Below, piece after piece: positions 6,923 through 44,211 of a stretch of 64,000 nucleotides of DNA. A program made the position numbers and the translations under genes. The notes under the pieces were generated by a model that was not told the DNA's origin, did no database searches, and saw only the letters and a program-made list of their open reading frames with translations. Every line of letters starts with the position of its first letter. Positions within the stretch are counted from its first letter, which is position 1. The stretch comes from a virus. The stretch covers positions 1 to 64,000 of the IMG/VR virus record IMGVR_UViG_3300047372_000605; one strand, 5' to 3'.

Positions 6923-8500
6923 ATGGCAACATGGAAAAAAGTAGTTGTATCAGGTAGTTCGTTAGCTCAGTTAGATAACAGTACCACCAACTACATAACT
7001 TCGGCGGGTGCACCAGTACAAAGTGTATCAGGTCAAACAGGAACTGTAACAACGACTCAGATATTAGCTGGTTCGACTGTTCTTTCAGGTTCCTTCCCAT
7101 CTGCACCTGTAACAAGTGTAGCAGGTCAAACGGGAGTAGTAACGCAAACCCAAATATTTGCAGGATCAGGAGCACTATCAGGCTCAGATTCAATGACTAT
7201 TGCGGGTAGCACAGTAGCATTAGGTGGTTCAATTACAGCCGATACTATTGCAGGTCAAATCAGTAATGACACTATTACTAACGCTCAGTTAGCGAATGAA
7301 GGAATGACCATTGCAGGTAACTCAGTAAACTTAGGTGGATCAGTTTCACAAGCAAATATATTAGCTGGTTCGACTGTTCTTTCTGGATCATTCCCATCTG
7401 CACCAGTAACAAGTGTAGCAGGTCAGACAGGAGTAGTAACACAGACTCAAATATTAGCTGGTTCAACTGTTCTTTCAGGTTCTTTCCCTACAGCACCAGT
7501 AACAAGTGTAGCAGGTCAAACAGGAGTAGTAACACAGACTCAAATATTTGCAGGATCAGGAGCATATTCAGGATCTAATTCAATGACTATTGCAGGACAA
7601 ACAGTAGCATTAGGAGGATCAATTACAGCGGATACTATCGCTGGCCAAATTAGCAACGATACTATTACCAATGCTCAATTAGCAAATGAAGGAATGACCA
7701 TTGCAGGTAACTCAGTAAACTTAGGTGGTTCAGTTTCACAAGCAAATATATTAGCTGGTTCAACTGTTCTTTCAGGTTCTTTCCCTACAGCACCAGTAAC
7801 AAGTGTGGCAGGTCAGACGGGAGTAGTAACACAGACTCAGATATTAGCTGGTTCAACTGTTCTTTCAGGTTCTTTCCCTACAGCACCAGTAACAAGTGTG
7901 GCAGGTCAGACAGGAGTAGTAACACAGACTCAGATATTAGCTGGTTCAACAGTATTATCAGGTTCGTTCCCAAGTGCATTCATTTCTTCTGTAACAGATA
8001 CTTCAGGCCAAACTGGTATTGATTTTACAGTAAATGCAGGAGCATTATCAGCAGTAGCTGTTGGATTAGGAACTAGTGATGATGTTGAATTTTCAAACTT
8101 AACAGTTTCAGGTGATTTAAGTGTAGCAGGAACTGCTTCATTTAAAAACGCTACAAACTTAAACGTAGCGGATCAATACATCTCAATGAACTCAGGTTCA
8201 GCAGGAGCTGCTAATGATTCTGGTGGTATAGTAGTACTACAAGATGGTCCTAATGGTGAATTATTCGGTTGGGCAGATGCAGCTGCATCAGCAATTGGTG
8301 GTCAAAGATGGGGTATTAAAACCAACTTTAACCCAAGTTCAACTGGTAATTTTGATCCAGATGCTTATATGGCAGCTGTATTAAAAGGACAAGATAATGT
8401 TAATAGTGCCTCAGGCATTGCAGCTATTGATAGTACTTACAACAGAAAAGGTAATATTTATGTAGCAAGTAATTTGGAGGATATTTGGATTTATTCTTAA
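6923..8500 (+). CDS. Tail fibre protein with VTSVAGQTGVV repeats
   Basis: This is a 525-residue fibre. It starts MATWKKVVVSGSS, nearly the same as the N-terminus of the 31918 fibre (MPNWKKVAISGSN), suggesting a common attachment or assembly motif. Residues about 30-360 are repeats built from PVTSVAGQTGVVTQTQI, LAGSTVLSGSFP and MTIAGxxVxLGGS. Residues about 380-525 form a distinct C-terminal domain (SGDLSVAGTASF and following), typical of the distal part of a phage fibre. It has its own late-type promoter and is followed by an intrinsic terminator, so it is probably a separate transcription unit. Receptor specificity cannot be read from the sequence. Confidence 0.75.
   Translation: MATWKKVVVSGSSLAQLDNSTTNYITSAGAPVQSVSGQTGTVTTTQILAGSTVLSGSFPSAPVTSVAGQTGVVTQTQIFAGSGALSGSDSMTIAGSTVALGGSITADTIAGQISNDTITNAQLANEGMTIAGNSVNLGGSVSQANILAGSTVLSGSFPSAPVTSVAGQTGVVTQTQILAGSTVLSGSFPTAPVTSVAGQTGVVTQTQIFAGSGAYSGSNSMTIAGQTVALGGSITADTIAGQISNDTITNAQLANEGMTIAGNSVNLGGSVSQANILAGSTVLSGSFPTAPVTSVAGQTGVVTQTQILAGSTVLSGSFPTAPVTSVAGQTGVVTQTQILAGSTVLSGSFPSAFISSVTDTSGQTGIDFTVNAGALSAVAVGLGTSDDVEFSNLTVSGDLSVAGTASFKNATNLNVADQYISMNSGSAGAANDSGGIVVLQDGPNGELFGWADAAASAIGGQRWGIKTNFNPSSTGNFDPDAYMAAVLKGQDNVNSASGIAAIDSTYNRKGNIYVASNLEDIWIYS
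7030..7970 (+). repeat. Repeats within the 6923 fibre gene
   Basis: Several near-identical blocks of about 70-300 bases occur here; for example the block encoding SFPTAPVTSVAGQTGVVTQTQ appears repeatedly. Two copies of a larger unit (about 7150-7370 and 7540-7770) encode the series from SMTIAG to SVSQANILAGS. Confidence 0.85.
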
Positions 8501-8528
8501 TATTACATAATAACAATTAACCAAATAA

Positions 8529-8560
8529 GGGCTGTGTTGCATAAATGCAGCCCTTTTTTT
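8529..8560 (+). terminator. Intrinsic terminator after the fibre block
   Basis: GGGCTG at 8529-8534 pairs with CAGCCC at 8548-8553, and an inner TGCA/TGCA pairing is possible. Seven T follow at 8554-8560. It lies about 30 bases after the fibre stop codon and ends the fibre transcription unit. Confidence 0.85.
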
Positions 8561-8576
8561 AATAAAATTTTTAAAT

Positions 8577-8777
8577 ATGGGTTTTAAAGCAAAAAATATA
8601 AAATCACCTAATAAGGTATCATCATCAGTGAATTTAAAAAAAGTTAAAGTAGATTTGGATAAGCGAGAACTTAGTCTTATATTAAATGGAGTTAAAAATT
8701 CCAACTTCCAAGGTAAGGATGTTCAAGGAGTTTTTAATTTAGTATTAAAATTACAAAACGCATATTCAAAATTATAA
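8577..8777 (+). CDS. Small protein, paralogue of the next gene
   Basis: This 66-residue basic protein was not assigned to a family. Its C-terminal half (LILNGVKNSNFQGKD then KLQNAYSKL) resembles the first half of the next protein (VLIGAVQSLNIKGSD then KLQDQVSRL), with the same spacing, so the two look like a tandem duplication. The start follows an A-rich stretch just after the terminator. The stop is three bases from the next ATG. Its place immediately before the sheath gene suggests a tail-assembly or virion role, but that is inference. Confidence 0.6.
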   Translation: MGFKAKNIKSPNKVSSSVNLKKVKVDLDKRELSLILNGVKNSNFQGKDVQGVFNLVLKLQNAYSKL

Positions 8778-8780
8778 AAA

Positions 8781-8990
8781 ATGGAATTAAATATCAATGA
8801 TTACAGAGTCCTAATAGGAGCTGTACAAAGTCTTAATATTAAAGGATCAGATGCTATTTATATGGCAAGTTTACTAAATAAACTACAAGATCAAGTTAGC
8901 AGATTAGAGATAGAATCTCAAGAAGGAAAAGATTTTGATTCTCCAAAATCAGAAACCACACCAGAATCTAAACCTAAACCTAAAAAATAA
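8781..8990 (+). CDS. Small protein with charged C-terminal tail
   Basis: The first 45 of 69 residues form an amphipathic helical region similar to the preceding protein (LIGAVQSLNIKGSD then KLQDQVSRL). The tail is rich in Lys, Pro, Ser and Glu (ESKPKPKK at the end) and looks disordered. It is followed immediately by a TATTTATA motif. The function is unknown. The duplication with 8577 and the position before the sheath suggest a small structural or assembly factor. Confidence 0.6.
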   Translation: MELNINDYRVLIGAVQSLNIKGSDAIYMASLLNKLQDQVSRLEIESQEGKDFDSPKSETTPESKPKPKK

Positions 8991-8998
8991 TATTTATA
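8991..8998 (+). promoter_or_regulatory. TATTTATA motif before 9002
   Basis: TATTTATA begins right after the previous stop codon and lies only three bases before the ATG at 9002. If it is a working promoter the transcript would start at or inside the start codon, so it may instead serve later genes. Confidence 0.3.
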
Positions 8999-9001
8999 GT
9001 C

Positions 9002-9250
9002 ATGGAAAAAACAGTTTTAAATAAAGAAGAAATTACAGAATTAAAAGAAATTCAAGATCTTCAAAATGGTTTATTATATAGATTAGGTCAAATTGAGTAC
9101 CAATTAAGAAATTTAAATAAAACTAAAGAACAAACATCTTTAGAATTATCATCCTCAGAACAAGAATCAGCTAAATTAGCGAAAAAATTAGAGGAAAAGT
9201 ATGGGGTAGGAACAGTAAATATAGAAAGCGGCGAATTTATTAAAGCTTAA
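9002..9250 (+). CDS. Small coiled-coil protein
   Basis: An 82-residue, Glu/Lys/Leu-rich protein with heptad-like spacing over residues about 5-65 (EITELKEIQDLQNGLLYRLGQIEYQLRN type pattern), so it is probably a coiled coil. The end is more compact (KYGVGTVNIESGEF). It stands between two TATTTATA motifs, directly before the sheath gene. No family was recognised. A tail-assembly role is possible from position only. Confidence 0.6.
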   Translation: MEKTVLNKEEITELKEIQDLQNGLLYRLGQIEYQLRNLNKTKEQTSLELSSSEQESAKLAKKLEEKYGVGTVNIESGEFIKA

Positions 9251-22366: not shown

Positions 22367-23020
22367 ATGTATTATCCAAAATCCCAAATAAAATCCAATC
22401 TTTATACTAATGGGGATAAATATGCTCTTTCTACTAATCAAAAAGCATATACAGGATATTACTATTCTACTTCAGGTGGAACTAATTATACAGGTAAATA
22501 TCCTAATGATGGAAAAAATATAAGGTTAATACCTATAATTCCTCCTTCTTCTAACCAACAAGAAAATGACAATGTATTTTCTCCAAATACAATTATGGTT
22601 CAAAAAATCCCAATGGAAACTTATGGTTCTGAGGGTATAAATTATAACAATAATGTAAGTTATAGTAACCTATCCCCAAAACAAAAATCAAATGATAGGT
22701 CTCTTCCTATTCCATCCCAACCATCTCCTTTATCTAAAGATTACATTAATGGATACTTTATTAGATATTTTGTTAAAAAAAATAATGAATCACTTTATTT
22801 TGAAATATCACCTATTTATTACAATTTACTAAAACTTGAAGACCCTACGGTAGCTTTTGAACTTTACAGTTGTATAGAAGTAAAATGGAGGTTAAGGGGG
22901 AATAAAAGTGTTGTTTATGCCGTAAATAAATCATTAATTAAAAATGTAGAAAAAAAAGAAATATGGCCTGGATTTTTTAATTATTTTGATTATAATTTTT
23001 CACAATATAACTTGGAATAA
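22367..23020 (+). CDS. Structural protein of unknown role
   Basis: This 217-residue protein starts two bases after the hub gene's stop. The first 130 residues are rich in Asn, Tyr, Ser and Pro (extended, beta-like). Residues about 125-200 form a more compact domain (YINGYFIRYFVKKNNESLYFEIS, then the CIEVKWRLRGNK segment). It ends the baseplate run; a host-type promoter follows at once. A baseplate or fibre-attachment role is likely from position. No family was recognised. Confidence 0.6.
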   Translation: MYYPKSQIKSNLYTNGDKYALSTNQKAYTGYYYSTSGGTNYTGKYPNDGKNIRLIPIIPPSSNQQENDNVFSPNTIMVQKIPMETYGSEGINYNNNVSYSNLSPKQKSNDRSLPIPSQPSPLSKDYINGYFIRYFVKKNNESLYFEISPIYYNLLKLEDPTVAFELYSCIEVKWRLRGNKSVVYAVNKSLIKNVEKKEIWPGFFNYFDYNFSQYNLE

Positions 23021-23042
23021 TTAAGTTTTATAATTATATTTA
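23012..23042 (+). promoter_or_regulatory. Host-type promoter before the polymerase A gene
   Basis: TTG at 23012-23014, a 20-base spacer, then TATATTTA at 23035-23042. This matches the Bacteroidota promoter pattern (TTTG, 19-21 bp, TAnnTTTG). It overlaps the end of the preceding gene and ends five bases before the TTG start at 23047. Confidence 0.6.
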
Positions 23043-23046: not shown

Positions 23047-24309
23047 TTGTTTTGGCTAATTGAAAATACAGACCAATTAAAAGGTTTTTACAATAAAGGT
23101 TACAAAGAAGCTTATATAGAAGTTATACCATATTCTTATAAAACTCACCCTGTAACTAACAAAGTATCCTTAGTATATGTACATCCTTTAGATGCGCATA
23201 AGGGCTATATCATTTCAATAAACCATAGTGAATCTATGCCATTAAACAGCGAATATATTGCTGAATTAATTGGTAGTTATAATACATTGTATGTTTGGGG
23301 TAAAAAGGAATTTTTGCATTATTATGTGCATAAAAACATAATAGATATTTCTTTAACATCCCCAGAATATGAAATGGAAACTACTAAAGCTCACCAAATA
23401 TTATCACAAAGAGCTAAAAATAAGTTGGATATTAACAGAATAGTTCCTATCGTTAAACATTATGAAACGTGTGAAAAAAATTATAATAATCTAAAACAAT
23501 ATTTTAATGCACCAGTCAACGAATTTTACAATAGCAGAGTACCATTGGTATTCAACTCCATCGAAAGGAATGGTTTACGAGTTAATAGAGAACTCTTTAA
23601 AGAACACTTCAATAAAGATTGGGGAGATAAAGTTTACACACAATATAATTATAGAACAACAACAACAAGGCCCTCAAATAGGTTCGGAGGGGTCAATTTT
23701 GCCGCTTTAAATAAAGAAAATGGAACAAGAAAAACATTTATTCCTGAAAATGATAGATTGGTTGAAATTGACATTTCAGCTTATCACCCTACTCTTGCTA
23801 GCTCCCTTATTCATTATAACTTTGGTGATGACGATATTCATAGATCATTTGCGCGATTATATAACGTTGATTATAAAAAAGCCAAAGAATTAACATTTAA
23901 ACAACTTTATGGTGGTGTTTTTAAACAATATCAACACTTAGAATTCTTTCAAAAGATTCAAACTTACATAAATAAAATATGGAGTCAATTCCAAAATGAA
24001 GGTTTTATAGAATGTCCTATATCAAAATATAGATTTGAGCGGGATAAATTGGATAATATGAACCCACAAAAATTATTCAATTATTTGTTACAGAATTTGG
24101 AAACTGCAACAAATGTTTGTATATTATGGGAAATAATTAAGATATTAAAAAGCAAAAAAACTAAACTAATTCTTTATACTTACGATGCGTTTTTGTTAGA
24201 TGTACATAAGGGAGAGAAAGAGGAGATAAAATTAATACTAGATGTATTTAAAAAACATAAACTAAAAGTAAAGATTAAACATGGAAGCAACTACGATTTT
24301 ACAGAATAA
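23047..24309 (+). CDS. Divergent small family A DNA polymerase
   Basis: The three palm/finger motifs of family A polymerases can be read in this 420-residue protein. Motif A is around Asp242 (VEIDISAYHPTLAS). The finger helix has the K-x3-F-x3-YG signature at Lys280, Phe284 and Tyr288 (KELTFKQLYGG). Motif C is around Asp380 (LYTYDAFLLDV), where the usual His-Asp-Glu is Tyr-Asp-Ala. An Arg-rich loop before motif A (TRPSNRFGGVN) fits the primer-binding region. The N-terminal 150 residues may be a decayed exonuclease fold, since no acidic exonuclease motif is evident. The only start close to the promoter is TTG 23047, preceded in frame by a stop. The phage also has a family B replicase at 45560/47486, so this is probably an accessory, repair or bypass enzyme. 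Confidence 0.75.
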   Translation: MFWLIENTDQLKGFYNKGYKEAYIEVIPYSYKTHPVTNKVSLVYVHPLDAHKGYIISINHSESMPLNSEYIAELIGSYNTLYVWGKKEFLHYYVHKNIIDISLTSPEYEMETTKAHQILSQRAKNKLDINRIVPIVKHYETCEKNYNNLKQYFNAPVNEFYNSRVPLVFNSIERNGLRVNRELFKEHFNKDWGDKVYTQYNYRTTTTRPSNRFGGVNFAALNKENGTRKTFIPENDRLVEIDISAYHPTLASSLIHYNFGDDDIHRSFARLYNVDYKKAKELTFKQLYGGVFKQYQHLEFFQKIQTYINKIWSQFQNEGFIECPISKYRFERDKLDNMNPQKLFNYLLQNLETATNVCILWEIIKILKSKKTKLILYTYDAFLLDVHKGEKEEIKLILDVFKKHKLKVKIKHGSNYDFTE

Positions 24310-24325
24310 TACTGATATTTATAAA

Positions 24326-24751
24326 ATGAATTACGACTTTGAAAGTCCTTATAATATTGGAGATTTGAATAATAAATTATTTTGTACATTTACTACATTA
24401 GATAATTTAGAGGGACTTGTATCTAGTCTCTCTTCTAAATACTCAATCATGTATAACAAAATGTTTGCGTTATATGTTAAGAGTAATGATGAATATGTTC
24501 TGACTTATAATGTAGACCAAGGTAACGTAAGTGAAATTCCTGATAACACAATATTAGTACATAGAAAAAAAGAAACAAATACTCTATATACTATAAACGC
24601 CTTAAACGAGCTAATCAAAAGCCTAAACGGAGGAGTAGTAAACACTAAATTCCCTATAGATTGGAAACACTATAGAAATTGTATACTATTAACCCAACAT
24701 AATGAGTTAAAACAACTCAATACCAAAATACACAAAATAATCGAACTATAA
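24326..24751 (+). CDS. Unknown protein between polymerase A and SSB
   Basis: This is a 141-residue protein if started at ATG 24326. The longer frame from 24281 would overlap the polymerase gene by 29 bases, so the later start is preferred. A TATTTATA string sits two bases before it, inside the spacer, but is too close to be a normal promoter. The protein is mixed alpha/beta with no known motif (for example LFCTFTTLDNLEGLVSSLSSKY and YVLTYNVDQGNVSEIPDNTILVHR in separate stretches). It is cotranscribed with the polymerase. A replication accessory role is possible but not shown. Confidence 0.55.
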   Translation: MNYDFESPYNIGDLNNKLFCTFTTLDNLEGLVSSLSSKYSIMYNKMFALYVKSNDEYVLTYNVDQGNVSEIPDNTILVHRKKETNTLYTINALNELIKSLNGGVVNTKFPIDWKHYRNCILLTQHNELKQLNTKIHKIIEL

Positions 24752-24813: not shown

Positions 24814-25644
24814 ATGGATTTAAGCAAAATCAAAAATCGCTTGGACAACCTAAACCAGGCCTCCAAGCCCAAAAACACGGAAAAAAAGGACTATACATTA
24901 ATCTATTGGAAACCCAAATCAGAAGGAAAATTCCAAATCAGGTTTGTACCTTCGAAACTCAACAAAGACAACCCATTCCAGGAAATTTTCATGCATTATG
25001 GCATTGGAAAATTTCCAATAGTGGCATTAACCAATTGGGGAGAAAACGATCCTGTAGTTGAATTTTCCAAAAAACTAAGAACATCATCTGACTCTGAAAA
25101 CTGGAGACTAGCAAAACAACTAGATCCTAAAATGAGAGTATTCGCTCCTGTTATTGTTAGAGGAGAAGAAGAAAAAGGTGTTAGATTATTTGAATTTAGT
25201 AAAACATTATACATGGAATTATTATCAGTTGCTGATGATGAGGATTATGGTGATTTTACAGACATTAATCAGGGATTTGACTTTGTAGTAACAGCTACTA
25301 AAGTACAAGACAGACCTGGATTTGGATTAAGTCTAAGACCAAAGCCAAAACAAACACCACTTAGTGATAATGCTGATACTATTAAAACATGGTTAGAAAA
25401 TCAACCACTTTTATTAGAAGAAAGATACAAGTACACTTATGATAAACTAAAAGAAGAATTACAAACATTCATATCTGGAGGTGAAGAGCAAGAAGATACT
25501 ATAGTATCAGAACCAGCTGTAGCATTCGAATCAGAAGCACCAGCTAAAGAAGAAAAAAAATTCACATTATCAACCCAAGGTACACCTAAAAAAGCAAAAT
25601 CAGAGGAATTTGATTCACTTTTTGAGGATGATTTACCATTTTAA
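24814..25644 (+). CDS. Single-stranded DNA-binding protein (T4 gp32-like)
   Basis: This 276-residue protein has the layout of gp32-type SSBs in marine T4-like phages. A basic N-terminus for cooperativity (MDLSKIKNRLDNLNQ) is followed by an OB-type core at about residues 25-200 (IRFVPSKLNKDNPFQEIFMHY, then FPIVALTNWGENDP) and an acidic tail. The tail ends with EEFDSLFEDDLPF, the type of acidic, Phe-ending tip that binds replication partners. The Cys/His zinc ligands of T4 gp32 are not present. It coats ssDNA at forks and in recombination, and is followed by UvsX. Confidence 0.87.
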   Translation: MDLSKIKNRLDNLNQASKPKNTEKKDYTLIYWKPKSEGKFQIRFVPSKLNKDNPFQEIFMHYGIGKFPIVALTNWGENDPVVEFSKKLRTSSDSENWRLAKQLDPKMRVFAPVIVRGEEEKGVRLFEFSKTLYMELLSVADDEDYGDFTDINQGFDFVVTATKVQDRPGFGLSLRPKPKQTPLSDNADTIKTWLENQPLLLEERYKYTYDKLKEELQTFISGGEEQEDTIVSEPAVAFESEAPAKEEKKFTLSTQGTPKKAKSEEFDSLFEDDLPF

Positions 25645-25654: not shown

Positions 25655-26731
25655 ATGCCAAGAGTAAAAAAATCACTATCGGAGGCAGTCTCCAAAGAAA
25701 TAAAATCCAAGTTTAATTTAAGTTCCTTCAAAGAAAAGAAGGGACTTAAACAAAATGTCAAATTTAAAGACCAAGAATGGATTCCACTATCATCTGCATT
25801 TCAAGATGTTACATCAATACCAGGTATTCCTACAGGACATATTGTCTTACTTAGAGGACATTCTGATACAGGTAAAACAACAGCATTATTAGAATCTGCA
25901 GTATCAGCTCAAAAAAGAGGTATACTACCTGTTTTTATTATTACAGAAATGAAATGGAATTGGGAACATGCTAAACAAATGGGATTACAAGTTGATGAAG
26001 TAGTAGATAAAGAAACTGGAGAAGTTGTAAACTATGAAGGTGAATTTATTTATGCTGATAGAGAAACAATCCACAGTATAGAAGATGTTGCTAAATTTAT
26101 TTTAGATTTAATGGACGAACAAAAGAGAGGTAATTTACCATACGATTTATTATTTTTATGGGATTCAATTGGATCAGTTCCTTGTGAAATGTCTATTAAA
26201 TCAAATAAAAACAATAATGAATGGAATGCTGGAGCAATGTCTACACAATTTGGAAATAGTGTTAACCAAAGGATTACATTATCAAGAAAAGAATCATCTG
26301 AATATACTAATACATTAGTTTGTATTAATAAAGTATGGACAGCAAAAGCAGAATCACCTATGGGTAAACCCAAGCTAATGAACAAAGGCGGATTTGCTAT
26401 GTGGTTTGATTCTACATTCGTAGTTACATTTGGTAATATTTCAAATGCTGGAACATCTAAGATTAAAGCAATTAAAGATGGTAAGCAAGTAGAATTTGCT
26501 AAAAGAGTTAATCTACAAATTGATAAAAACCATATTAATGGAGTTACTACAAGAGGTAAAATTGTAATGACACCACATGGATTTATCAATGACGATGATA
26601 AAGAATTAAAAGCCTACAAAGATCAAAATGCTAAAGCATGGAAAGATATTTTAGGGGGAACTGATTTTCAAATCGTAGAAGAAGAACAAGCATACAACGA
26701 TATAACTTCCTACTCAGAGGAACCACAATAG
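25655..26731 (+). CDS. uvsX: UvsX/RecA-like recombinase
   Basis: In this 358-residue protein the Walker A loop is GHSDTGKTT near residue 71 and Walker B is LLFLWDSIGS near 165. These are followed by the GNSVNQRITLSRKES loop and a C-terminal segment rich in charged residues. The arrangement and length match T4 UvsX, which forms filaments on ssDNA, acts in strand exchange and starts recombination-dependent replication. It follows the SSB gene by ten bases, a natural partner. It could also be called RecA-like, but the context favours UvsX. Confidence 0.85.
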   Translation: MPRVKKSLSEAVSKEIKSKFNLSSFKEKKGLKQNVKFKDQEWIPLSSAFQDVTSIPGIPTGHIVLLRGHSDTGKTTALLESAVSAQKRGILPVFIITEMKWNWEHAKQMGLQVDEVVDKETGEVVNYEGEFIYADRETIHSIEDVAKFILDLMDEQKRGNLPYDLLFLWDSIGSVPCEMSIKSNKNNNEWNAGAMSTQFGNSVNQRITLSRKESSEYTNTLVCINKVWTAKAESPMGKPKLMNKGGFAMWFDSTFVVTFGNISNAGTSKIKAIKDGKQVEFAKRVNLQIDKNHINGVTTRGKIVMTPHGFINDDDKELKAYKDQNAKAWKDILGGTDFQIVEEEQAYNDITSYSEEPQ

Positions 26732-26737: not shown

Positions 26738-27763
26738 ATGGACAAGAAAAACTTACTTAAACTTCTCAATGATACTGAGGAGAATGATACCGGCTCATCT
26801 AAAGGTACAAGAACACTACTTATAGATGGTTTAAATTTATTTTTTAGAAATTTCGCTATGATGAATATGGTTAATCCAAGTGGTATTCACATAGGAGGTT
26901 TAGGTGGGTTTTTCCGTTCACTAGGTGCTGAAATTCGTAGAACACAACCTGATCAAGTTTATGTTATATTTGATGGAGCAGGATCCACTACAAACAGAAA
27001 AAACATATTATCAGAATATAAATCAGGTAGAGAAGACCAACGAGTTACTAATTGGGAAGTATTTGATTCTTTAGATGATGAGCATGATTCTAAAGTAGAC
27101 CAAATAGTAAGAGTAATACATTATTTAAAAACACTACCAGTTAAAACAGTTATATTAGATAAGGTAGAAGCAGATGATATCATCGCTTATCTGTGTGATA
27201 AATTACCAAATCACCCAGATGATAAAGTATTCATAGTATCCAGTGATAAGGATTTTCTACAGTTAGTAAACAAAAATGTTATTGTTTACAGACCAATGGA
27301 AAAAAAATACTATACAGAAGAAGTATTTAAAGCTAAATACAAAATGTCTCCCCAAAACTTTATTTTACATAAAACCCTTTTGGGAGATGCTTCAGATAAA
27401 ATTAAAGGTGTTAAAGGTTTAGGTGAAAAAGGATTACTTAAAAAATTCCCTGAATTATCAGAACGTGATCTTACATTTGATGATATATTTGAAATATGTG
27501 AGAAAAAATTCAAAGACCATGTTGTATACGCTCGTATTATACAAGGTGTAGATGATTTAGAAAAAAACTACAAAGTAATGGATTTATCAAATCCTATGAT
27601 GGATAAAAATGAAAAAAAATACTTAGATGAGGTTGTTAAATTAAAAGAATTAAATTATATTCCTGAGCAGTTCATTTCATTGTATAATGAAGATCAGTTA
27701 GGTGGAATGATTAGAAATTTAGATTATTGGTTAAAAGAAAATTTTGAAAGGTTATATAAATGA
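26738..27763 (+). CDS. 5'-3' exonuclease / RNase H (T4 rnh-like FEN family)
   Basis: This 341-residue protein starts with the FEN-family metal site TLLIDGLNLFFRNF near residue 26. It continues with VYVIFDGAGSTTNRK, the acidic cluster KVEADDIIAYL near 147, and FIVSSDKDFLQLV near 167. The helix-hairpin-helix part (GDASDKIKGVKGLGEKG) follows near 220. These residues bind the two metal ions and the DNA. In T4 the equivalent removes RNA primers and nicks flaps. Its stop overlaps the helicase start (ATGA), which suggests coupled translation. Confidence 0.87.
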   Translation: MDKKNLLKLLNDTEENDTGSSKGTRTLLIDGLNLFFRNFAMMNMVNPSGIHIGGLGGFFRSLGAEIRRTQPDQVYVIFDGAGSTTNRKNILSEYKSGREDQRVTNWEVFDSLDDEHDSKVDQIVRVIHYLKTLPVKTVILDKVEADDIIAYLCDKLPNHPDDKVFIVSSDKDFLQLVNKNVIVYRPMEKKYYTEEVFKAKYKMSPQNFILHKTLLGDASDKIKGVKGLGEKGLLKKFPELSERDLTFDDIFEICEKKFKDHVVYARIIQGVDDLEKNYKVMDLSNPMMDKNEKKYLDEVVKLKELNYIPEQFISLYNEDQLGGMIRNLDYWLKENFERLYK

Positions 27764-29112
27764 CATTAAAAAGTATACAAGAATACGGTCCCAAATTTCA
27801 AGTTAAAGTACTATCATCTTTACTAACCCATAAAGAGTTTTTAGTAAACATATATGATATATTAAATGAGGAAGATTTTAATAATCAAGCACATAGATGG
27901 ATTGTAAAAGAAATACTTCAATACTACGACAAATACCATACAACACCTTCATTAGATATTCTAAAGGTAGAAGTTAAGAAAGTAGAAAATGAAGTATTAC
28001 AATTATCTATAAAAGAACAATTAAGAGAAGCATACATAGCCTCAGATGAAGATTTAAAATATGTCCAAGAGGAATTTACAGGGTTTTGTAAAAATCAACA
28101 ATTAAAAAAAGCATTACTATCATCTGTAGATTTACTTAAAGCAGGAGATTATGATTCTATTAAAATAATGGTTGAAGAAGCACTAAAAGCAGGTGCTGAT
28201 AAAAACATAGGACATGAATATAATCTAGATATTGAAACTAGATATAGAGAAGACAATAGAAAACCAGTTGCTACACCTTGGCCTAAAATAAATGAATTAC
28301 TACAAGGTGGATTAGGGCAGGGAGATTTTGGTTTAATATTTGGTAATCCTGGAGGAGGTAAAAGTTGGTCATTAGTAGCATTAGGAGGACATGCTGTAAG
28401 AATGGGTTACAACGTTTTACATTATACTTTAGAATTAGGTGAAGATTATGTAGGTAGAAGATATGATTCATTTTTTACCAAAGTACCAGTTAACCATATT
28501 TCTTCTCATCAAGACCAAGTAAGAGAAATTATTCCTCAAATACCAGGTAAATTAGTTATTAAAGAGTTTCCAATGGGAAAAGCCACAATCCACACAGTAG
28601 AGTCACATATTAGAAAGTGTACTGATTTAGATATCCAACCAGATCTTGTAATAATAGATTATGTTGATCTTCTTTCATCAAGAAGGAAAAATGTTGACCG
28701 TAAGTATGAAATTGATGATATTTATACAAGCACAAAAGGTCTTGCTCGTGAACTAAATGTACCAATTTGGTCGGTTTCACAAGTTAATAGAGCTGGTGCA
28801 AAAGACGATGTCATAGAAGGAGACAAAGCAGCGGGATCTTACGATAAGATTATGATAACTGATTTTTGTCTTTCGTTGTCTAGAAAGGCAAAAGATAAAG
28901 TAAATGGCACTGGAAGGTTTCATGTAATGAAAAACAGATACGGTATGGATGGTTTAACATATGGAGTAAAAGCAGATACATCAACAGGACATTTTGAAGT
29001 TCATGATTATGATGAAGATAGCGAATTAGAATCCCCTTCAAGACCAGTTAATCCTAACTCTAATTTTGATCATTTTGATCTTAAAAAGTTAAATCAGGAA
29101 TTTAATTCCTAA
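27760..29112 (+). CDS. DnaB-type replicative helicase (T4 gp41-like)
   Basis: This 450-residue protein has an N-terminal helical domain (about 1-130) and a RecA-like motor. The motor holds Walker A GNPGGGKSW near residue 198, the catalytic Glu in TLELGEDYVGRR and Walker B LVIIDYVDLLSS near 300. The following VPIWSVSQVNRAG segment is the conserved H3/sensor strand. Such hexamers unwind DNA ahead of the polymerase. No separate primase gene was seen in the window. The last 40 residues are polar. Confidence 0.9.
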   Translation: MTLKSIQEYGPKFQVKVLSSLLTHKEFLVNIYDILNEEDFNNQAHRWIVKEILQYYDKYHTTPSLDILKVEVKKVENEVLQLSIKEQLREAYIASDEDLKYVQEEFTGFCKNQQLKKALLSSVDLLKAGDYDSIKIMVEEALKAGADKNIGHEYNLDIETRYREDNRKPVATPWPKINELLQGGLGQGDFGLIFGNPGGGKSWSLVALGGHAVRMGYNVLHYTLELGEDYVGRRYDSFFTKVPVNHISSHQDQVREIIPQIPGKLVIKEFPMGKATIHTVESHIRKCTDLDIQPDLVIIDYVDLLSSRRKNVDRKYEIDDIYTSTKGLARELNVPIWSVSQVNRAGAKDDVIEGDKAAGSYDKIMITDFCLSLSRKAKDKVNGTGRFHVMKNRYGMDGLTYGVKADTSTGHFEVHDYDEDSELESPSRPVNPNSNFDHFDLKKLNQEFNS

Positions 29113-38486: not shown

Positions 38487-38518
38487 TTTGGCTTCCCCAA
38501 TAAAGGTTCGTATATTTA
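38487..38518 (+). promoter_or_regulatory. Host-type promoter of the DNA-modification cluster
   Basis: TTTG at 38487-38490, exactly 20 bases, then TATATTTA at 38511-38518. It ends only three bases before the ATG at 38522, so the transcript may be leaderless for that gene. Confidence 0.6.
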
Positions 38519-38521: not shown

Positions 38522-39034
38522 ATGACTAAAAATTATATTTACGATGTAGATGAAGATACAGTTTTAGAAAAAATATCACAACTGCAACCCCTTAATTATA
38601 ATCAATTTAGATGGTGGAGAAGATTTGATTCTCCAAACAAACCATTACACAAATATTCTGATTTACTAGATAAAATCCAAAATGGTGATTATGAATTCTC
38701 TCATTATTACTGGCAAGCAAGATATGCCGAAATGGAAATAAATCATTTACACCATGAAACATATCCCGATGCTGTTTTATTTAATGAAAAAAATGCTATG
38801 AACGGTGCTAGAAGAAAACGTTTGTGGGATGATTTTGAAAAAGACGAAAAAGAACGTATTAATAGTATTGAAAAAGATTTCTATATGAAGTTCAAAATGT
38901 CTCGAAAGCAAGTAAAAGAAGAAATGGGAGGGTTTGGAGGTACACTAGAAAATTTTTATCATTATTGTGATAAAGAATTTGGAACAAGACGAGAAAAATT
39001 ACAAACACGAGGAAGACCAAGAAAAGTTATATGA
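38522..39034 (+). CDS. Unknown protein with C-terminal AT-hook-like motif
   Basis: This 170-residue charged, Trp/Tyr-rich protein (for example QFRWWRRFDSPNKPLHKYSD and FSHYYWQARYAEMEINHLHHE in separate parts) is mainly helical. The C-terminus, TRGRPRKVI, is an AT-hook-like basic GRP tail similar to that of the 35827 protein. Its stop overlaps the start of the DpdA-like gene (ATGA), so it is the first gene of the modification operon. It may help the modification enzymes reach DNA or may control the operon; both are inference. No family was recognised. Confidence 0.6.
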   Translation: MTKNYIYDVDEDTVLEKISQLQPLNYNQFRWWRRFDSPNKPLHKYSDLLDKIQNGDYEFSHYYWQARYAEMEINHLHHETYPDAVLFNEKNAMNGARRKRLWDDFEKDEKERINSIEKDFYMKFKMSRKQVKEEMGGFGGTLENFYHYCDKEFGTRREKLQTRGRPRKVI

Positions 39035-39822
39035 AAGTATCACATGAAGCACCAATTCCCTACATGAAACAAGTTAGGGGGTTAATTGATTATGACTATT
39101 GTTTACCACACTTGCTAGATGAAAGCGAAGAATATAAACAATATTTTCAAGAATCTAAAGAAATGCAACGTTATATTATTATGGATAATTCCTTACATGA
39201 ATTAGGAGAACCATATGATTCAGAACGCCTAGCCCATTGGTTATATTATTTTAAACCTGATGAATTTATAGTACCAGATTACTGGCAAGATAAAACAGCT
39301 ACATTAGTATCAGCTAAAGAATGGGTTAATAAAAAATATCCTGAAAATACAACCCCAGTAGCTGTAGTACAAGGTAAAAATGAAGGTGAAGCTAGAGAAT
39401 GTTATAGAATATTAAAATATCAAGGTTATGAAAAAATAGCATTTAGTTATGGTGCAGATTGGTATTATGGTAAGGGAAAAGAAACATCTAAAAATATAGA
39501 AAATATAACAGTAACAAAAGCTCATGGTAGATATAACTTTATAAAAGAATTATATGAAGAAGATACTATTAAAAAATCAGATAGAATACATTTATTAGGA
39601 TGCAATATTCCTCAAGAATTTAAATGGTATAAAAATATGCCATTTATTAAAACAATAGACACATCAAACCCAGTTATACATGGTTTATCAGGAATAAAAT
39701 ATGAGCCCTGGGGATTGGATAACAAAATATCTACTAAGGTAGATAAATTTAAAGGAGAAGCTGAACATTGGGAAACAGCAATTTATAACATACAATTATT
39801 TAAAACATTTATACCAACATGA
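39031..39822 (+). CDS. dpdA: DpdA-like DNA-guanine transglycosylase (TGT superfamily)
   Basis: This 263-residue protein resembles the short phage branch of the tRNA-guanine transglycosylase superfamily that inserts 7-deazaguanines into DNA. Readable signatures are YIIMDNSLHELGEP near residue 49 (the first catalytic Asp), EFIVPDYWQDKTATL near 87, VAVVQGKNEGEA near 112, and IHLLGCNIPQEF then IKTIDTSNPV near 190-212 (the probable nucleophile Asp). The zinc cysteine cluster of tRNA enzymes is absent. With QueC, QueD, QueE and FolE all nearby, it probably exchanges guanine in phage DNA for preQ0. Both ends overlap neighbours by four bases. Confidence 0.75.
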   Translation: MKVSHEAPIPYMKQVRGLIDYDYCLPHLLDESEEYKQYFQESKEMQRYIIMDNSLHELGEPYDSERLAHWLYYFKPDEFIVPDYWQDKTATLVSAKEWVNKKYPENTTPVAVVQGKNEGEARECYRILKYQGYEKIAFSYGADWYYGKGKETSKNIENITVTKAHGRYNFIKELYEEDTIKKSDRIHLLGCNIPQEFKWYKNMPFIKTIDTSNPVIHGLSGIKYEPWGLDNKISTKVDKFKGEAEHWETAIYNIQLFKTFIPT

Positions 39823-40688
39823 AACAAGCAGTATTAAGTTTAAGTGGTGGAATGGATAGCAGTACACTATTACTTCACCTATTAGCAAACGATTATAAAG
39901 TAACAGCTCTTAGTTTTGATTATGGTCAAAAACATAGAGTTGAATTAGAAAGAGCACAACAATTAGTAGATTACTTAAATAGTAAAGCAAGTGAAACTTT
40001 AGCTAAAAATGATTTAGGAGAAACTATTAAACATAATTTTGAGCCTATTACATATCAATCTATTAAATTAGACGGTTTAACATCACTATTAGATTCAGCT
40101 TTAGTAGAAGGTGGAGATGATGTTCCTGAAGGACATTATGAAGAAGATAATATGAAAGCAACAGTAGTGCCTAATAGAAATAAAATATTTTCATCACTAA
40201 TACAATCTGTAGCATTATCAATTGCTAACAAAACAGAATCAGCGGTAAAAATAGCAATGGGTATTCATGCTGGAGATCATGCAATTTATCCTGATTGTAG
40301 ACAAGAATTTAGAGATGCAGATTATAAAGCATTTTCGGAAGGTAACTGGGAAGCATCAAGGGTATCATTATACACACCATATTTAAATGGAGATAAATTT
40401 GATATTTTAAAAGATGGAGAAGTATGTTGTAAAGAATTAGGGATTGATTTTAATGAAGTATATAAAAGAACTAATACATCATATAAACCAACAGCTGAAG
40501 GATTATCAGATTATAAATCAGCATCTTCAGTAGAAAGGATAGAAGCATTTTTAAAACTAGGTAGAAAAGACCCTGTCATATATGTAGATGGTTGGGACAC
40601 AGCAAAATCTCATGTTGAAAAATTATTAGCCGATCATGCAAATAAGCCTAACATGAATGATACTATCGACATGGTAAATAATATGTAA
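39819..40688 (+). CDS. queC: 7-cyano-7-deazaguanine synthase QueC, zinc site replaced
   Basis: QueC converts carboxy-deazaguanine to preQ0 using ATP and ammonia. This 289-residue protein keeps the ATP loop LSLSGGMDSSTLLL near residue 7, SFDYGQKHRVELERA, TVVPNRNKIF and the HAGDHAIYPDCR region. The C-terminal zinc site, normally CX8CX2CX2C, is missing. The aligned residues are Tyr222, Asp231, Ser234 and Ser237 at exactly the same spacing, just before the conserved VERIEAF. The fold may be held in another way. The residues after it (about 250-289) are extra compared with cellular QueC. It overlaps the DpdA-like gene. Confidence 0.85.
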   Translation: MKQAVLSLSGGMDSSTLLLHLLANDYKVTALSFDYGQKHRVELERAQQLVDYLNSKASETLAKNDLGETIKHNFEPITYQSIKLDGLTSLLDSALVEGGDDVPEGHYEEDNMKATVVPNRNKIFSSLIQSVALSIANKTESAVKIAMGIHAGDHAIYPDCRQEFRDADYKAFSEGNWEASRVSLYTPYLNGDKFDILKDGEVCCKELGIDFNEVYKRTNTSYKPTAEGLSDYKSASSVERIEAFLKLGRKDPVIYVDGWDTAKSHVEKLLADHANKPNMNDTIDMVNNM

Positions 40689-40689
40689 T

Positions 40690-40845
40690 ATGAAGCAACC
40701 AGACGCAAAAAAGCATCAAGTAATAAGTTTTATAAAATCAGGAATTCGTATCTTAGGATATGGATTTCTTGTAATTAATTTGCCTATTGCAGTAATTTTA
40801 CTTATATTAAGTGAAGCAGTAGGAATAATAGAAGAATTAGTATAA
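40690..40845 (+). CDS. 51-residue membrane microprotein
   Basis: The reading frame runs from ATG 40690 to TAA 40843-40845 and fills the whole gap between queC and queD. The stop shares a base with the queD start (TAATG). The first 18 residues are basic and polar. Residues about 19-42 form one hydrophobic segment (ILGYGFLVINLPIAVILLIL), and the end is acidic (GIIEELV). It is a likely inner-membrane protein. The tight packing and the typical start suggest a real gene. Function is unknown. Confidence 0.65.
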   Translation: MKQPDAKKHQVISFIKSGIRILGYGFLVINLPIAVILLILSEAVGIIEELV

Positions 40846-41309
40846 TGGGAAAATTTCAATCAAGTAAAGTTTTTGACGGGTTTAGTACAGTGTTTCGTCA
40901 ATGGAAAGCTGAAGATACACACTGTAGGTTTTTACATGGGTATGGTATTTCATTTAAAGTATATTTTGAAGGTGAATTAGATGGTAGAAATTGGGTTTGG
41001 GATTTTGGAGGAATGAAAAGAGCCAAAACTAAAATTGATGGTAAATCTCCTAAAGAATGGTTTGATTTTATGTTTGACCATACTGTAATAATAGCAGAAG
41101 ATGACCCAGGAATGGGTGGTTGGGAAACAATGAATAAATTGGGAGTTATTCAATTAAGAGTTATTGAAGCAACAGGAGCAGAAAAATTTGCAGAGTTTAT
41201 CTTTAATAAAGTAAATGATTTTGTCCATGAAGAAACTGAAGGTAGAGTAAGAGTTACTAAGGTTAAATTTATGGAACATGGTAAAAATGCAGCTTACTAC
41301 TGTGAATAA
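40845..41309 (+). CDS. queD: 6-carboxytetrahydropterin synthase QueD-like protein with altered zinc site
   Basis: QueD makes carboxytetrahydropterin, the second step toward preQ0. In this 154-residue protein the active-site pattern is Cys27-x3-His31-Gly-Tyr33, where cellular enzymes have CxxxHGH. The first zinc His of the AAHR motif is replaced by Phe17. The catalytic Cys27, the Asp-His pair in MFDHTVI near residue 78 and the Glu in KFMEHGK remain. So only one of three zinc ligands is kept in the usual place. The length is normal. It may bind metal in a different way or be specialised. Confidence 0.72.
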
Positions 41310-41316
41310 AAAAATA

Positions 41317-41401
41317 GGAAAGATGGCAGAGCGGTCGAATGCGCTGGTCTTGAAAACCAGTTTACTGAAAAGTAACGGGGGTTCGAATCCCTCTCTTTCC
41401 G
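41317..41401 (+). tRNA. tRNA-Ser (TGA)
   Basis: GGAAAGA at 41317 pairs with TCTTTCC at 41394-41400. The anticodon arm is CTGGT-CTTGAAA-ACCAG with anticodon TGA. A long variable arm (TTACT/AGTAA) and the T-loop GTTCGAATC confirm a serine tRNA. There is no encoded CCA. Confidence 0.93.
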
Positions 41402-41408
41402 CAAAAAT

Positions 41409-41479
41409 TACCGGGTCGTCTAGTGGCAGGACATTTGGTTTTGGTCCAGAGAACGGAGGTTCGAATCCTTCCCCGGTAA
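41409..41479 (+). tRNA. tRNA-Gln (TTG)
   Basis: TACCGGG at 41409 pairs with CCCGGTA at 41472-41478. The anticodon loop reads TTTTGGT with anticodon TTG. The T-loop GTTCGAATC is present. It lies seven bases after the previous tRNA. Confidence 0.92.
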
Positions 41480-41488
41480 CTATTAAAT

Positions 41489-41565
<77 letters not shown>

Positions 41566-41579
41566 CTAAAATTAAATAA

Positions 41580-42350
41580 ATGAAAAGAATAGAAGATTAT
41601 AATAAAGTATTACCAGTTTTAGAAGTATATAGGTGTGTACAATCAGAAGGATCTAGATTTGGTAGACCTACAATAGCAGTTAGAACAACAGGTTGTACTC
41701 ACAGATGCTATTTTGGAGAAGGTGGTTGGTGTGATTCTTGGTATACAAGTATACATCCAGAAAAAGGTACATTTACATTTAATGATATTATTAAAATATA
41801 TGATGATAATCCTCATGTAAAAGAAATGATGTTAACAGGTGGTTCACCTACAATGCACCCTGCTTTAGTAAATGAAATAACACACTTTGCAAATGAAAGA
41901 AATATACTTGTTACAATTGAAACTGAAGGTTCTCATTTTCTTGAAACCGATTATCCCTTGGATCTTATTAGTCTTAGTCCTAAGTTTTCTAATTCAGTTC
42001 CTGTAATAGGAGCTATTACACCTAATGGAGCAGTAGCAGATGAAAGAATGATTAAAGTCCATAACAGACTTAGATTAAATAAAGAAGCTATAGGAAAAAC
42101 AATTGCATACCATAAAGACTATCATTTTAAACCAGTATGGGATGGCACAGATAAAAATTTAGAAGAAATAGAGGCATTTAGAGTTGAAATGGATATACCA
42201 AAGGACAAAACATTTATTATGCCAGCTGGAGATACTAGAGAAACACTAATAAAAATGTATCCTTTAGTATTTGAATTATGTGCTGAAAAAGGATATAATA
42301 TGACAGGTAGAGACCATATTATAGCATTTGATACAGAACGAGGTGTCTAA
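41580..42350 (+). CDS. queE: QueE-like radical SAM enzyme (7-carboxy-7-deazaguanine synthase) with unusual cluster spacing
   Basis: This 256-residue protein has the QueE opening EVYRCVQSEGSRFGRPTIAVR and the radical SAM cluster, but the cysteines are Cys39-x3-Cys43-x7-Cys51 and not the usual CX3CX2C. The loop that follows SAM's methionine part is TGGSP (Gly87-Gly88-Ser89), where most members have GGE. The later ISLSPKFSNS segment fits QueE. It makes carboxy-deazaguanine, the substrate of QueC. The start follows a tRNA by 14 bases with an A-rich leader. A GTG-started small ORF overlaps its end. Confidence 0.8.
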   Translation: MKRIEDYNKVLPVLEVYRCVQSEGSRFGRPTIAVRTTGCTHRCYFGEGGWCDSWYTSIHPEKGTFTFNDIIKIYDDNPHVKEMMLTGGSPTMHPALVNEITHFANERNILVTIETEGSHFLETDYPLDLISLSPKFSNSVPVIGAITPNGAVADERMIKVHNRLRLNKEAIGKTIAYHKDYHFKPVWDGTDKNLEEIEAFRVEMDIPKDKTFIMPAGDTRETLIKMYPLVFELCAEKGYNMTGRDHIIAFDTERGV

Positions 42351-42477
42351 GGAGGAAGCATTAGAAATATTAGAAGAAATAAAAGAAAACGTAAACGTTT
42401 GTTGTGCCATTACTATGGAACCAGACGAAGTATTAGATTTAATAGAAAAATTAGAAGAATATTTAAGAAATGAATAA
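42343..42477 (+). CDS. 44-residue acidic microprotein
   Basis: The GTG at 42343 overlaps the last codons of queE by eight bases, and the stop overlaps the next ATG by eight. The product is helical and acidic (SKEEALEILEEIKENVNVCC, then EPDEVLDLIEKLEEYLRNE). An in-frame GGAGG lies just inside. It fits exactly between the two genes, which supports it being real. Function is unknown. Confidence 0.5.
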   Translation: MSKEEALEILEEIKENVNVCCAITMEPDEVLDLIEKLEEYLRNE

Positions 42478-43045
42478 AATAAAAATAACATTAATTTTAA
42501 TACTTAGCAGTGTTTTAAATTATAGTCAAGTAATAAAAACTGACATATTTACAGTTAAATATTCTGAAGAATATCAACAACCAATTTGGTTAGAATATAC
42601 AATACAATGCCCAAACGGACACGCTGAAAGAACAGGTATGAATTTTTGGGTACCTAAAGGGGTAAAAACATCAGATGATGCAGATTATGTAGATAATATT
42701 TACGATAAAGGTCACTTAGCACCTGCGGCAGCATTTAACTGTGATAAAGAAACCCTACTTAAAACATTTTCATACTTAAACTCAGCTTTACAACATGAAG
42801 GACTAAACAGAGGACAATGGGCAAGACTAGAATCATTTGAAAGAAGTTTAGCTAATTTCTTTGATAAAGAAGTAAAAGTAAGAGTAGATGTCTTATTCGA
42901 AGGTAAATTAAAAAAGGTAAAAGGTGGAGCTACAATACCTAGTGGCTTTAGAAAAACAATAATAATGGGAGATATTAAAAAAATATTTGAATTTCCAAAC
43001 GCCGATACAAAAGGTACAAGTTGGATAGAATATCTCAAAAAATAA
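42470..43045 (+). CDS. Secreted DNA/RNA non-specific endonuclease (beta-beta-alpha-metal type)
   Basis: This 191-residue protein has a signal peptide of flavobacterial style at residues 1-20 (MNKIKITLILILSSVLNYSQ). The NUC motif DRGH appears as Asp79-Lys-Gly-His82 in DKGHLAPAAAF, with His82 the general base. The metal-binding Asn region LNSALQHEGLNRGQWARLE follows, with Asn104 and Asn113. It should degrade DNA and/or RNA in the periplasm or outside the cell, and so cannot attack phage DNA inside the cytoplasm. It might destroy DNA of competing phages at entry or release nutrients. Host origin by transfer is plausible. Confidence 0.78.
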   Translation: MNKIKITLILILSSVLNYSQVIKTDIFTVKYSEEYQQPIWLEYTIQCPNGHAERTGMNFWVPKGVKTSDDADYVDNIYDKGHLAPAAAFNCDKETLLKTFSYLNSALQHEGLNRGQWARLESFERSLANFFDKEVKVRVDVLFEGKLKKVKGGATIPSGFRKTIIMGDIKKIFEFPNADTKGTSWIEYLKK

Positions 43046-43051
43046 AAAATT

Positions 43052-43207
43052 ATGAAAGTAACAAATTTATGGAATAAACTTAGAATATTAAGTGGTAATA
43101 TTTTAGAAATTAAGATTAGGATAAGTAAATTTATAATATTAGATTTATTTGTAAGTACAAACAGATTTAAATTAATGATTTTAAATATTGGATTTGAAAG
43201 CAAGTAA
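43052..43207 (+). CDS. 51-residue basic hypothetical protein
   Basis: The frame runs from ATG 43052 to TAA 43205-43207. It overlaps the start of the next gene by about 20 bases. The product is rich in Leu, Ile, Lys and Asn (LWNKLRILSGNILEIKIR, then KFIILDLF), probably amphipathic. It fills the only gap between the nuclease and the lipoprotein. Start and reality are uncertain; function is unknown. Confidence 0.4.
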   Translation: MKVTNLWNKLRILSGNILEIKIRISKFIILDLFVSTNRFKLMILNIGFESK

Positions 43208-43763: not shown

Positions 43764-44197
43764 AAAAATACAATGTAGATTGGGATGAAATAAAAGCTTT
43801 AGTATTCAGGCTATCCCATAAAATAATTACCAACGATTTAGAATTTAAAAACATATATGGTTTACAAAGAGGAGGTTTAATACCTGCAGTAATGTTATCT
43901 CACCAATTAGGAATACCTATGGCTAAAGGTGATATAGGACCTGACACTTTAATAGTAGACGATATTTGTGATAGTGGAGAAACACTAGATAATTTAGTAA
44001 AAAAATATCAAACATTATATTCTTACCCATTTAACCTTAAAACAGCAGTTTTACATTATAAACCTCATACTTCATGTTTTGAACCAACTTTATATGCCGA
44101 AAAATGGAATAAGGATGTTTGGTTAATATATCCTTGGGAAAAAGAAGATTCAGAAGCTATACAAGATTACAAAGTAAAAGTTGGAGAATTGCAATAA
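43760..44197 (+). CDS. Phosphoribosyltransferase
   Basis: This 145-residue protein has a type I PRTase fold, with IYGLQRGGLIPAVMLSHQL near residue 32 and the PRPP loop TLIVDDICDSGETL near 65, where the two Asp residues bind PRPP. The C-terminal YAEKWNKDVWLIYPWEKE resembles xanthine/hypoxanthine PRTases. It probably salvages a purine base, and could in principle act on a deazapurine given the neighbours, though that is speculation. It overlaps the lipoprotein gene by four bases. Confidence 0.8.
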   Translation: MKKYNVDWDEIKALVFRLSHKIITNDLEFKNIYGLQRGGLIPAVMLSHQLGIPMAKGDIGPDTLIVDDICDSGETLDNLVKKYQTLYSYPFNLKTAVLHYKPHTSCFEPTLYAEKWNKDVWLIYPWEKEDSEAIQDYKVKVGELQ

Positions 44198-44211
44198 TTT
44201 TATTATATTAA
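44181..44211 (+). promoter_or_regulatory. Host-type promoter of folE
   Basis: TTG at 44181-44183, 20 bases, then TATATTAA at 44204-44211. The ATG at 44227 follows by 15 bases. Confidence 0.55.

Follow-up and report, generated by a model that had tools for sequence, protein, structure and literature searches.

A small family A DNA polymerase with an apparently missing thumb, co-inherited with a partner protein in T4-like phages

Introduction

The thumb is the part of a DNA polymerase that binds double-stranded DNA, as stated in the accessible text of a review of phage polymerases whose thumb passages there are general or concern DpoZ (PMC8775771). In the PolA of phage Tt72, the accessible part of the published description places the thumb at residues 230-336 and 366-375, 117 in all, and reports that an Ala mutant at the position equivalent to E710 of E. 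coli Pol I retains 35% activity, that the E883 position is naturally Ser, with an Ala mutant there retaining 76%, and that two Asp mutants drop to 4% (PMC9324360). A homologue of the polymerase examined here already carries the annotation 'DNA polymerase family A'. Searches of open-licence papers, which make up part of the literature, turned up no account of this family or of its missing thumb, His gate and partner, and this includes the accessible text of PMC12602537, PMC8775771, PMC5332604, PMC7544198, PMC9324360 and PMC13136892. The accessible text of the review PMC8775771 speaks neither of 'two DNA polymerases' or a 'second DNA polymerase' nor of a 'steric gate'.

Here we analyse a gene for such an enzyme in a stretch of 64,000 nucleotides (the window) from the viral IMG/VR record IMGVR_UViG_3300047372_000605, and compare it with its relatives in other phages.

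Results

The gene and its promoter

Two features define the start of the locus.

23047-24309, + strand: small family A DNA polymerase, 420 aa, predicted to lack a thumb and proofreading residues (ORF, profile and model)
23012-23042, + strand: promoter-like element TTG-N20-TATATTTA, ending 4 nt before the polymerase start codon

The start codon is TTG. At the aligned position many relatives have ATG and the closest ones TTG, which makes the TTG start credible. Compared with five close relatives, the window gene has Nei-Gojobori dN/dS ratios of 0.07-0.22. The upstream element resembles the Bacteroidetes-type -33/-7 promoter and would yield a nearly leaderless mRNA. Of 48 family members, counting the window, 35 have TATATT in the 70 nt before the gene, compared with 367 of 4900 random positions, which are mostly coding; at the level of this pattern, the host-type promoter that had been predicted for the gene as head of the replication block is supported. 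The exact form TAnnTTTn stands 2-8 nt before the start in only 19 of the 48, and is combined with an upstream TTG in 10. Across the window, the strict pattern TTG-N19-21-TATATTT[AG] occurs three times on the + strand and twice on the - strand, where simulation of a single strand gave 0.6 on average, and a sigma-70 scan gave no clear excess over shuffles (22 vs 17.5, sd 4.3). A second copy of TTG-N20-TATATTTA lies at 38488-38518, 3 nt before the ORF at 38522 and upstream of the deazaguanine genes, which suggests that whole gene blocks of this phage may be transcribed from nearly leaderless promoters.

Family A identity and active site

The Pfam profile DNA_pol_A (PF00476) matches the window protein weakly (18.8 bits, below the cut-off of 34.3), and PHROGs gave no match to it at E 0.1. 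The homologue gp001 of phage immuto passes the Pfam cut-off with 42.7 bits, and PF00476 matches at E<=0.1 in 13 of 49 family members. In profile-profile comparison (hhalign), a 131-row family profile matched the palm and fingers of PolA with E 3.7e-11; this match needed an alignment of 23 full-length PolAs, a single PolA sequence being insufficient as target. Searched singly against PolA-derived HMMs at E<=0.01, 19 of the 131 family sequences matched the palm and fingers, one matched the exonuclease and none the thumb. Among the sequences of solved structures, neither of two profiles found a relative at E<=0.01, and a single-sequence search returned one unrelated match (E 0.31). In an AlphaFold model of the small polymerase (pLDDT 92.2, pTM 0.90), 390 of the 420 residues aligned with Bacillus Pol I, beginning at residue 1 (Z 25.9, rmsd 3.7), and the top Foldseek match of the model had an E of 8.5e-19. 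Taken together, the Pfam score of immuto gp001, the palm/fingers profile match and the fold of the model identify the gene as a family A polymerase. The original prediction, which had called it a second, highly divergent member of that family and had proposed profile search and structure prediction as the check, is confirmed by both. To that prediction the present analysis adds the apparent loss of the thumb, the invariant His at the steric gate, the co-inherited partner gene and the occurrence of the enzyme beside a full-length PolA replicase in some relatives. By descent the gene belongs to the PolA superfamily; it is not a canonical Pol I.

The active site was located by alignment with E. 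coli Pol I (equivalents in brackets).

23770-23787, + strand: motif A, with D242 (D705) and with H247 at the steric gate (E710)
23884-23910, + strand: fingers O-helix, with K280, F284 and Y288 (K758, F762, Y766)
24184-24186, + strand: motif C catalytic D380 (D882), flanked by Y379 and A381

The Klenow alignment is in register at R668, D705, E710, R754, K758, F762, Y766, N845, Q849, H881, D882 and E883. Residues were counted after removal of near-identical rows, which left 126 distinct sequences, 106 of them at least 380 aa long. The residues picked out beforehand from the sequence (D242, K280, F284, Y288 and Tyr-Asp-Ala in motif C) had all been named correctly, with Y379-D380-A381 corresponding to H881-D882-E883. 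R208, D242, K280, Y288, Q349 and D380 are identical in all 126 sequences, and F284 and N345 are kept in 125; that is, R668, D705, K758, F762, Y766, N845, Q849 and D882 of Pol I are each retained in 125 or 126, and the two catalytic aspartates of motifs A and C in all 126. In a 23-row alignment, 36 of the 420 positions are invariant, and these include seven of the eight kept canonical residues (hypergeometric p 1.4e-7).

Other positions have changed. The steric-gate E710 is His in 126/126, the H881 position is Tyr in 125, the E883 position is Ala in 69 and Ser in 57, and the R754 position is Tyr in 105 sequences, with Arg kept in one. The activity remaining in the Tt72 PolA mutants, as given in the accessible text, indicates that the changes at the steric gate and at E883 need not kill the enzyme (PMC9324360).

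A reduced architecture

Two regions of the protein depart from the Pol I plan.

23047-23514, + strand: vestigial 3'-5' exonuclease-like domain, residues 1-156 (seen at the level of structure; no sequence-profile match)
23572-23670, + strand: thumb region, residues 176-208, with 32 residues; thumb absent or one short helix (length and model)

The protein had been described as having only 420 residues and no clear exonuclease, and this was right: a domain with an exonuclease-like fold seems, from the model, to remain in residues 1-156, and its catalytic acids are not conserved. Across the 126 distinct sequences, no column in this stretch is acidic in as many as 95% of the rows, and Asp nowhere reaches 80%; the alignment that holds the ERNG match misplaces the N-terminal domain and was left out here. 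An exonuclease profile did not match the family profile (E 0.063). The acidic residues of the exonuclease are lost in Bacillus Pol I too.

In E. coli Pol I, 124 residues lie between the G of the ERNG motif and R668. Among the 131 rows of the family, 91 have 31-38 residues from the ERNG position to R208 and the other 40 have 15-21, and the model places a single 8-residue helix in the thumb region. A thumb-only profile gave no match to the family profile (E 0.27), in a comparison where the divergent T7 gp5 itself scores just 0.011. The alignments are without confidence between residues 157 and 190, as is hhalign in the thumb region, and one alignment sets Klenow otherwise there, with 36 residues before R668; the case for thumb loss therefore rests on length, the secondary structure of the model and the ERNG match. 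A thumb of about 100 residues is predicted to be absent, mainly because the small polymerase has no room for it. The fingers are also shortened, from 53 residues in Klenow to 38 here between D705 and K758, and from 79 to 57 between Y766 and N845. The part of the enzyme that grips DNA seems to have been lost.

A protein with no thumb, with R754 lost, with altered neighbours in motif C and with a decayed exonuclease active site might have become a catalytically silent PolA fold that acts as a scaffold or regulator of the replisome. We hold this to be highly doubtful, because the polymerase catalytic residues are unchanged throughout the family, down to about 28% identity with the window protein, whereas the exonuclease-like domain of the same protein has kept no such acidic column.

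Replicase, clamp system and primase

The window contains a second set of replication genes downstream of the small polymerase.

45560-47236, + strand: family B replicase, N-terminal part (exonuclease, motif A)
47486-48463, + strand: family B replicase, C-terminal part (YVDTDS motif)
48460-49200, + strand: putative sliding clamp, so labelled for its size and its place in the block (PHROGs gave no match, Pfam none better than chance)
52374-53297, + strand: gp44-like clamp loader
54143-54580, + strand: gp62-like clamp loader small subunit

The family B replicase that the original prediction had placed in this phage is thus present, though split into two ORFs. The break in this T4-type PolB falls just before the DTDS motif, and an 86-residue ORF (from 47226) lies between the halves. 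In the related genome G019, PolB is split at nearly the same site around a different ORF of about 213 aa, and it is intact in G001 and G018. Hsp20-like, GroES and GroEL genes follow the replicase and clamp block in the window (49309-51775); GroES and GroEL occur in all six genomes examined gene by gene, and Hsp20 only in G000 and G020. Further on, at 56511-63957, the window holds glycosyltransferase-like ORFs and, at 62494-63957, an ORF resembling a sialic acid synthase, as judged by eye from the translations.

A separate full-size replicase was found in all 10 records longer than 75 kb that carry the small polymerase, namely PolB in G000, G001, G018, G019, G021, G022, Microcystis phage Mel-JY01 and LR756508, and PolA in immuto and G020. 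Among 22 shorter contigs, two have one, and the others may be too short. In the six genomes examined gene by gene, gp44, gp62 and the putative clamp are present in G000, G001, G018 and G019, and none of them was detected at E<=0.01 in immuto and G020 (best match, G020 gp44 with 0.03). A full-length PolA stands there where the others have the PolB set (immuto NC_055915.1, 37898-40231; G020, about 101874-104231), as if PolB, gp44, gp62 and the putative clamp had been exchanged as one set. The small polymerase is independent of the type of replicase: it occurs beside PolB, gp44 and gp62 in four genomes and beside a full PolA without them in two. In a tree of the small polymerase, in which few branches are firm, the two genomes with a PolA replicase are not grouped (1% of bootstrap trees). 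The small polymerase had itself served to find all these genomes, so that its presence there proves nothing, and a selection independent of it was applied to contigs with a PolA replicase. Twelve contigs longer than 120 kb were picked by an immuto-type PolA replicase; the small polymerase and its partner are both present in 11 of them, and the twelfth (120 kb, possibly a fragment) has neither.

These genome comparisons contradict the idea that the small enzyme is the phage's main replicase. Its polymerase fold and its position at the head of the replication block would suit that role, which is nevertheless scarcely credible for an enzyme that lacks proofreading and thumb room and that is accompanied by a full-size replicase in all ten long records tested. 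On this point the earlier proposal of a bypass, repair or primer-extension enzyme stands, inasmuch as the protein is an accessory enzyme and not the replicase.

With immuto as query, a DnaG-type primase was found in 5/5 long relatives tested (PHROG primase E 1.6e-41). None was seen in the 93-kb record from which the window comes; this record is probably incomplete, as relatives measure 147-160 kb. The presence of the primase in the five relatives rules out the small PolA as the only primase.

The partner gene and the replication block

Downstream of the small polymerase, five genes continue the block on the same strand.

24281-24751, + strand: partner protein, 156 aa, alpha/beta fold without recognised match, gene overlapping that of the polymerase by 29 nt
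24814-25644, + strand: gp32-like single-stranded DNA-binding protein (SSB)
25655-26731, + strand: UvsX/RecA-like recombinase
26738-27763, + strand: 5'-3' exonuclease (Pol I N-terminal or FEN type), proposed functional partner
27760-29112, + strand: gp41/DnaB-like replicative helicase

The partner is co-inherited with the small polymerase. A tblastn search of 50,697 phage records found the polymerase in six, namely four immuto isolates, Mel-JY01 and the uncultured phage LR756508 (484 kb), and the partner in the same six and no others; the neighbouring SSB and 5'-3' exonuclease were found in 35 and 1,229 of these records. Eighty loci were collected with the partner alone, and 78 of them carry the polymerase; in the other two, the contig ends at most 1 base upstream of the partner ORF. 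Conversely, 115 loci collected with the polymerase form 86 distinct sequence groups, and 73 of these have the partner. In another 12 the sequence stops no more than 39 bases after the polymerase, and in the last one the polymerase fragment is too short for recognition; the two collections overlap in contigs. At 80 distant loci (67 groups), the partner is present in 71, of which 59 at a distance of at least 1 kb, and at the remaining nine none was seen in the 0-1963 bases of downstream sequence covered.

The partner model has a pLDDT of 78. Foldseek found nothing in the PDB at E<=0.001 and, among viral models, one uncharacterised homologue (A0A6J5MCY5, E 3e-13). The top 17 VIA rows are origin-binding domains of polyomavirus T antigens, with Z of 5.6-6.5, too low for naming the fold. 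RegA, gp59 and other known T4 factors were considered and found no support, PHROGs and Pfam giving scattered weak matches only.

The order polymerase, partner, SSB, UvsX, 5'-3' exonuclease and gp41 on one strand is kept in 84/84 groups that show all six genes, with insertions at some loci and with NrdB and NrdA usually next; Mel-JY01 and LR756508 retain most of it. Correlation of evolutionary distances over 63 loci gave the small polymerase its strongest partial r with the 5'-3' exonuclease (0.54, bootstrap 0.41-0.64), followed by 0.30 with the partner and 0.29 with SSB, and values near zero with UvsX and gp41. In the 37 loci with NrdA and NrdB, the polymerase-exonuclease value of 0.59 was second only to the positive control NrdA-NrdB (0.95). 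The partner, in the 63 and 37 loci respectively, gave 0.32 and 0.44 with gp41, with wide intervals, 0.30 and 0.25 with the polymerase, and 0.06 and 0.04 with the exonuclease. Because the pairwise distances depend on one another, and because correlation comes more easily to fast-evolving genes, these values are suggestive only, and that for gp41 makes the partner also compatible with a role at the helicase.

The shared block and the tracking of gp41 by the partner are among the observations that would fit a ribonucleotide-tolerant polymerase making or extending primers at the gp41 helicase, a family A counterpart of Pol alpha/PrimPol. The invariant change of the steric-gate Glu to His and the lack of thumb room agree with it, as a missing thumb and an altered gate would allow de novo or RNA/DNA primer synthesis. 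We nevertheless find such an enzyme improbable, given the DnaG-type primase of the long relatives and the retention of F762 in all sequences except one; T7 RNA polymerase has Met at that position.

Occurrence

A scan of IMG/VR confirmed at least 577 stretches among 599 candidates listed, and a scan with a query built from distant members at least 575 among 600 candidates listed. The contigs kept from three polymerase scans and one partner scan make up at least 217 distinct sequence groups. When 84,980 bacterial and archaeal genomes were scanned by pattern, four loci came up, all on MAG contigs, and two of them hold the whole phage block. On a contig binned as Rickettsiaceae (L225), a 38% identical copy lies at 7902-9182 together with a partner and an SSB gene; this is probably a phage contig. 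The small polymerase looks like a phage family, carried by many T4-like phages of marine and freshwater bacteria.

Deazaguanine genes

At 39031-44922 the window has a deazaguanine cluster with a DpdA-like protein, QueC, QueD, QueE and FolE. The DpdA-like protein (263 aa) has no Pfam match, matches PHROG 19058 (unknown function) and matches immuto gp206, which is annotated DpdA. These genes bear on the main rival to the role proposed below, namely a polymerase with an open, exonuclease-less site that is used for lesion bypass or for modified bases where the replicase stalls at 7-deazaguanine or damage. We consider it unlikely, if worth keeping in view. The absence of conserved proofreading acids, the shortened fingers and the missing thumb would suit such an enzyme, five of seven relatives tested match the window's DpdA-like gene, and QueC occurs in the window, immuto, G001, G018 and G019. 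However, the O-helix residues are canonical, and in Mel-JY01 and LR756508, which carry the polymerase and partner, neither DpdA (E<=0.01) nor QueC was matched; in G020 the DpdA-like match is weak and QueC is missing, and a divergent modification pathway in these three could have been missed. The suggestion that the enzyme is needed to copy modified DNA is weakened by the two genomes that keep the pair without detectable DpdA or QueC.

Discussion

Proposed role

The results point to the pair as an undescribed two-protein helper in phage DNA replication. The reading that we favour, with confidence just short of even, is that the small enzyme is an active family A polymerase, non-proofreading and thumbless, which together with its 156-residue partner performs short distributive synthesis, likeliest gap filling beside the 5'-3' exonuclease. 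The enzyme would consist of a vestigial exonuclease fold, a palm and short fingers, and would work inside the T4-like replication and recombination module. It would fill short gaps and extend fragment ends while the co-encoded exonuclease takes out primers, the two halves of a bacterial Pol I, placed on separate genes, thereby providing for lagging-strand maturation and fragment joining. The partner, which may bind the polymerase, would supply contacts to DNA or protein, and bulk synthesis would stay with the replicase.

Several observations weigh against gap filling. Loss of the thumb could prevent the enzyme from holding the primer-template, and R754 is almost never kept. The correlation between polymerase and exonuclease could partly reflect fast evolution of both genes, and the partner is nearly uncorrelated with the exonuclease. 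To our knowledge, T4 itself matures its Okazaki fragments without such an enzyme. A two-subunit polymerase is conceivable as well, though on balance we doubt it: the partner would act as a thumb in trans and the His gate would relax sugar selection, and the complex would make or extend short stretches of RNA/DNA, either at the gp41 helicase or in gaps. If true, T4-like phages of aquatic bacteria would share an accessory polymerase of a new kind.

A PolA active site kept in 126 sequences without apparent room for a thumb, always together with one small protein, would show how small a working polymerase can be and what can stand in for its missing parts. The relatives provide a natural experiment, in which the replicase, clamp loader and putative clamp vary and the pair is present in both kinds of genome. 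Confirmation would also explain lagging-strand completion in an abundant phage group, and the enzyme might prove useful as a compact polymerase whose sugar selection is altered.

Comparison with known systems

Phage RM378 is reportedly a precedent for a split PolA. We rejected it as such, since its protein Rm378p092 has a PolB-like LDFTSLYPS motif (by eye); a profile scan of the first 50 kb of RM378 (L139) gave no match to the small PolA or its partner.

A named relative is gp001 of Flavobacterium phage immuto (YP_010114413.1, 'DNA polymerase family A'), a homologue with about 38% identity and the same neighbours, known by annotation only; in immuto, a full-length PolA (gp199, 777 aa) replaces PolB. 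According to the accessible part of its description, the PolA of phage Tt72 is likewise divergent and is active with Ser at the E883 position; unlike the small polymerase, it possesses a thumb, proofreads strongly and has Glu at the 710 position (PMC9324360). The archaeal PolB that acts as a lagging-strand specialist beside PolD, as presented in the accessible text of PMC13136892, shares the idea of a second polymerase for Okazaki-fragment maturation, and serves as an analogy only, from other polymerase families and another domain of life. With the large fragment of bacterial Pol I (Bacillus, Klenow), the small polymerase has in common the fold over 390 residues. Compared with Klenow (605 aa), it is 185 residues shorter, without apparent thumb room or conserved proofreading acids, and with E710 changed to His, E883 to Ala or Ser, H881 to Tyr and R754 mostly to Tyr. 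Where bacterial Pol I carries its 5' nuclease in the same protein, the phage encodes it on a separate gene, four genes downstream.
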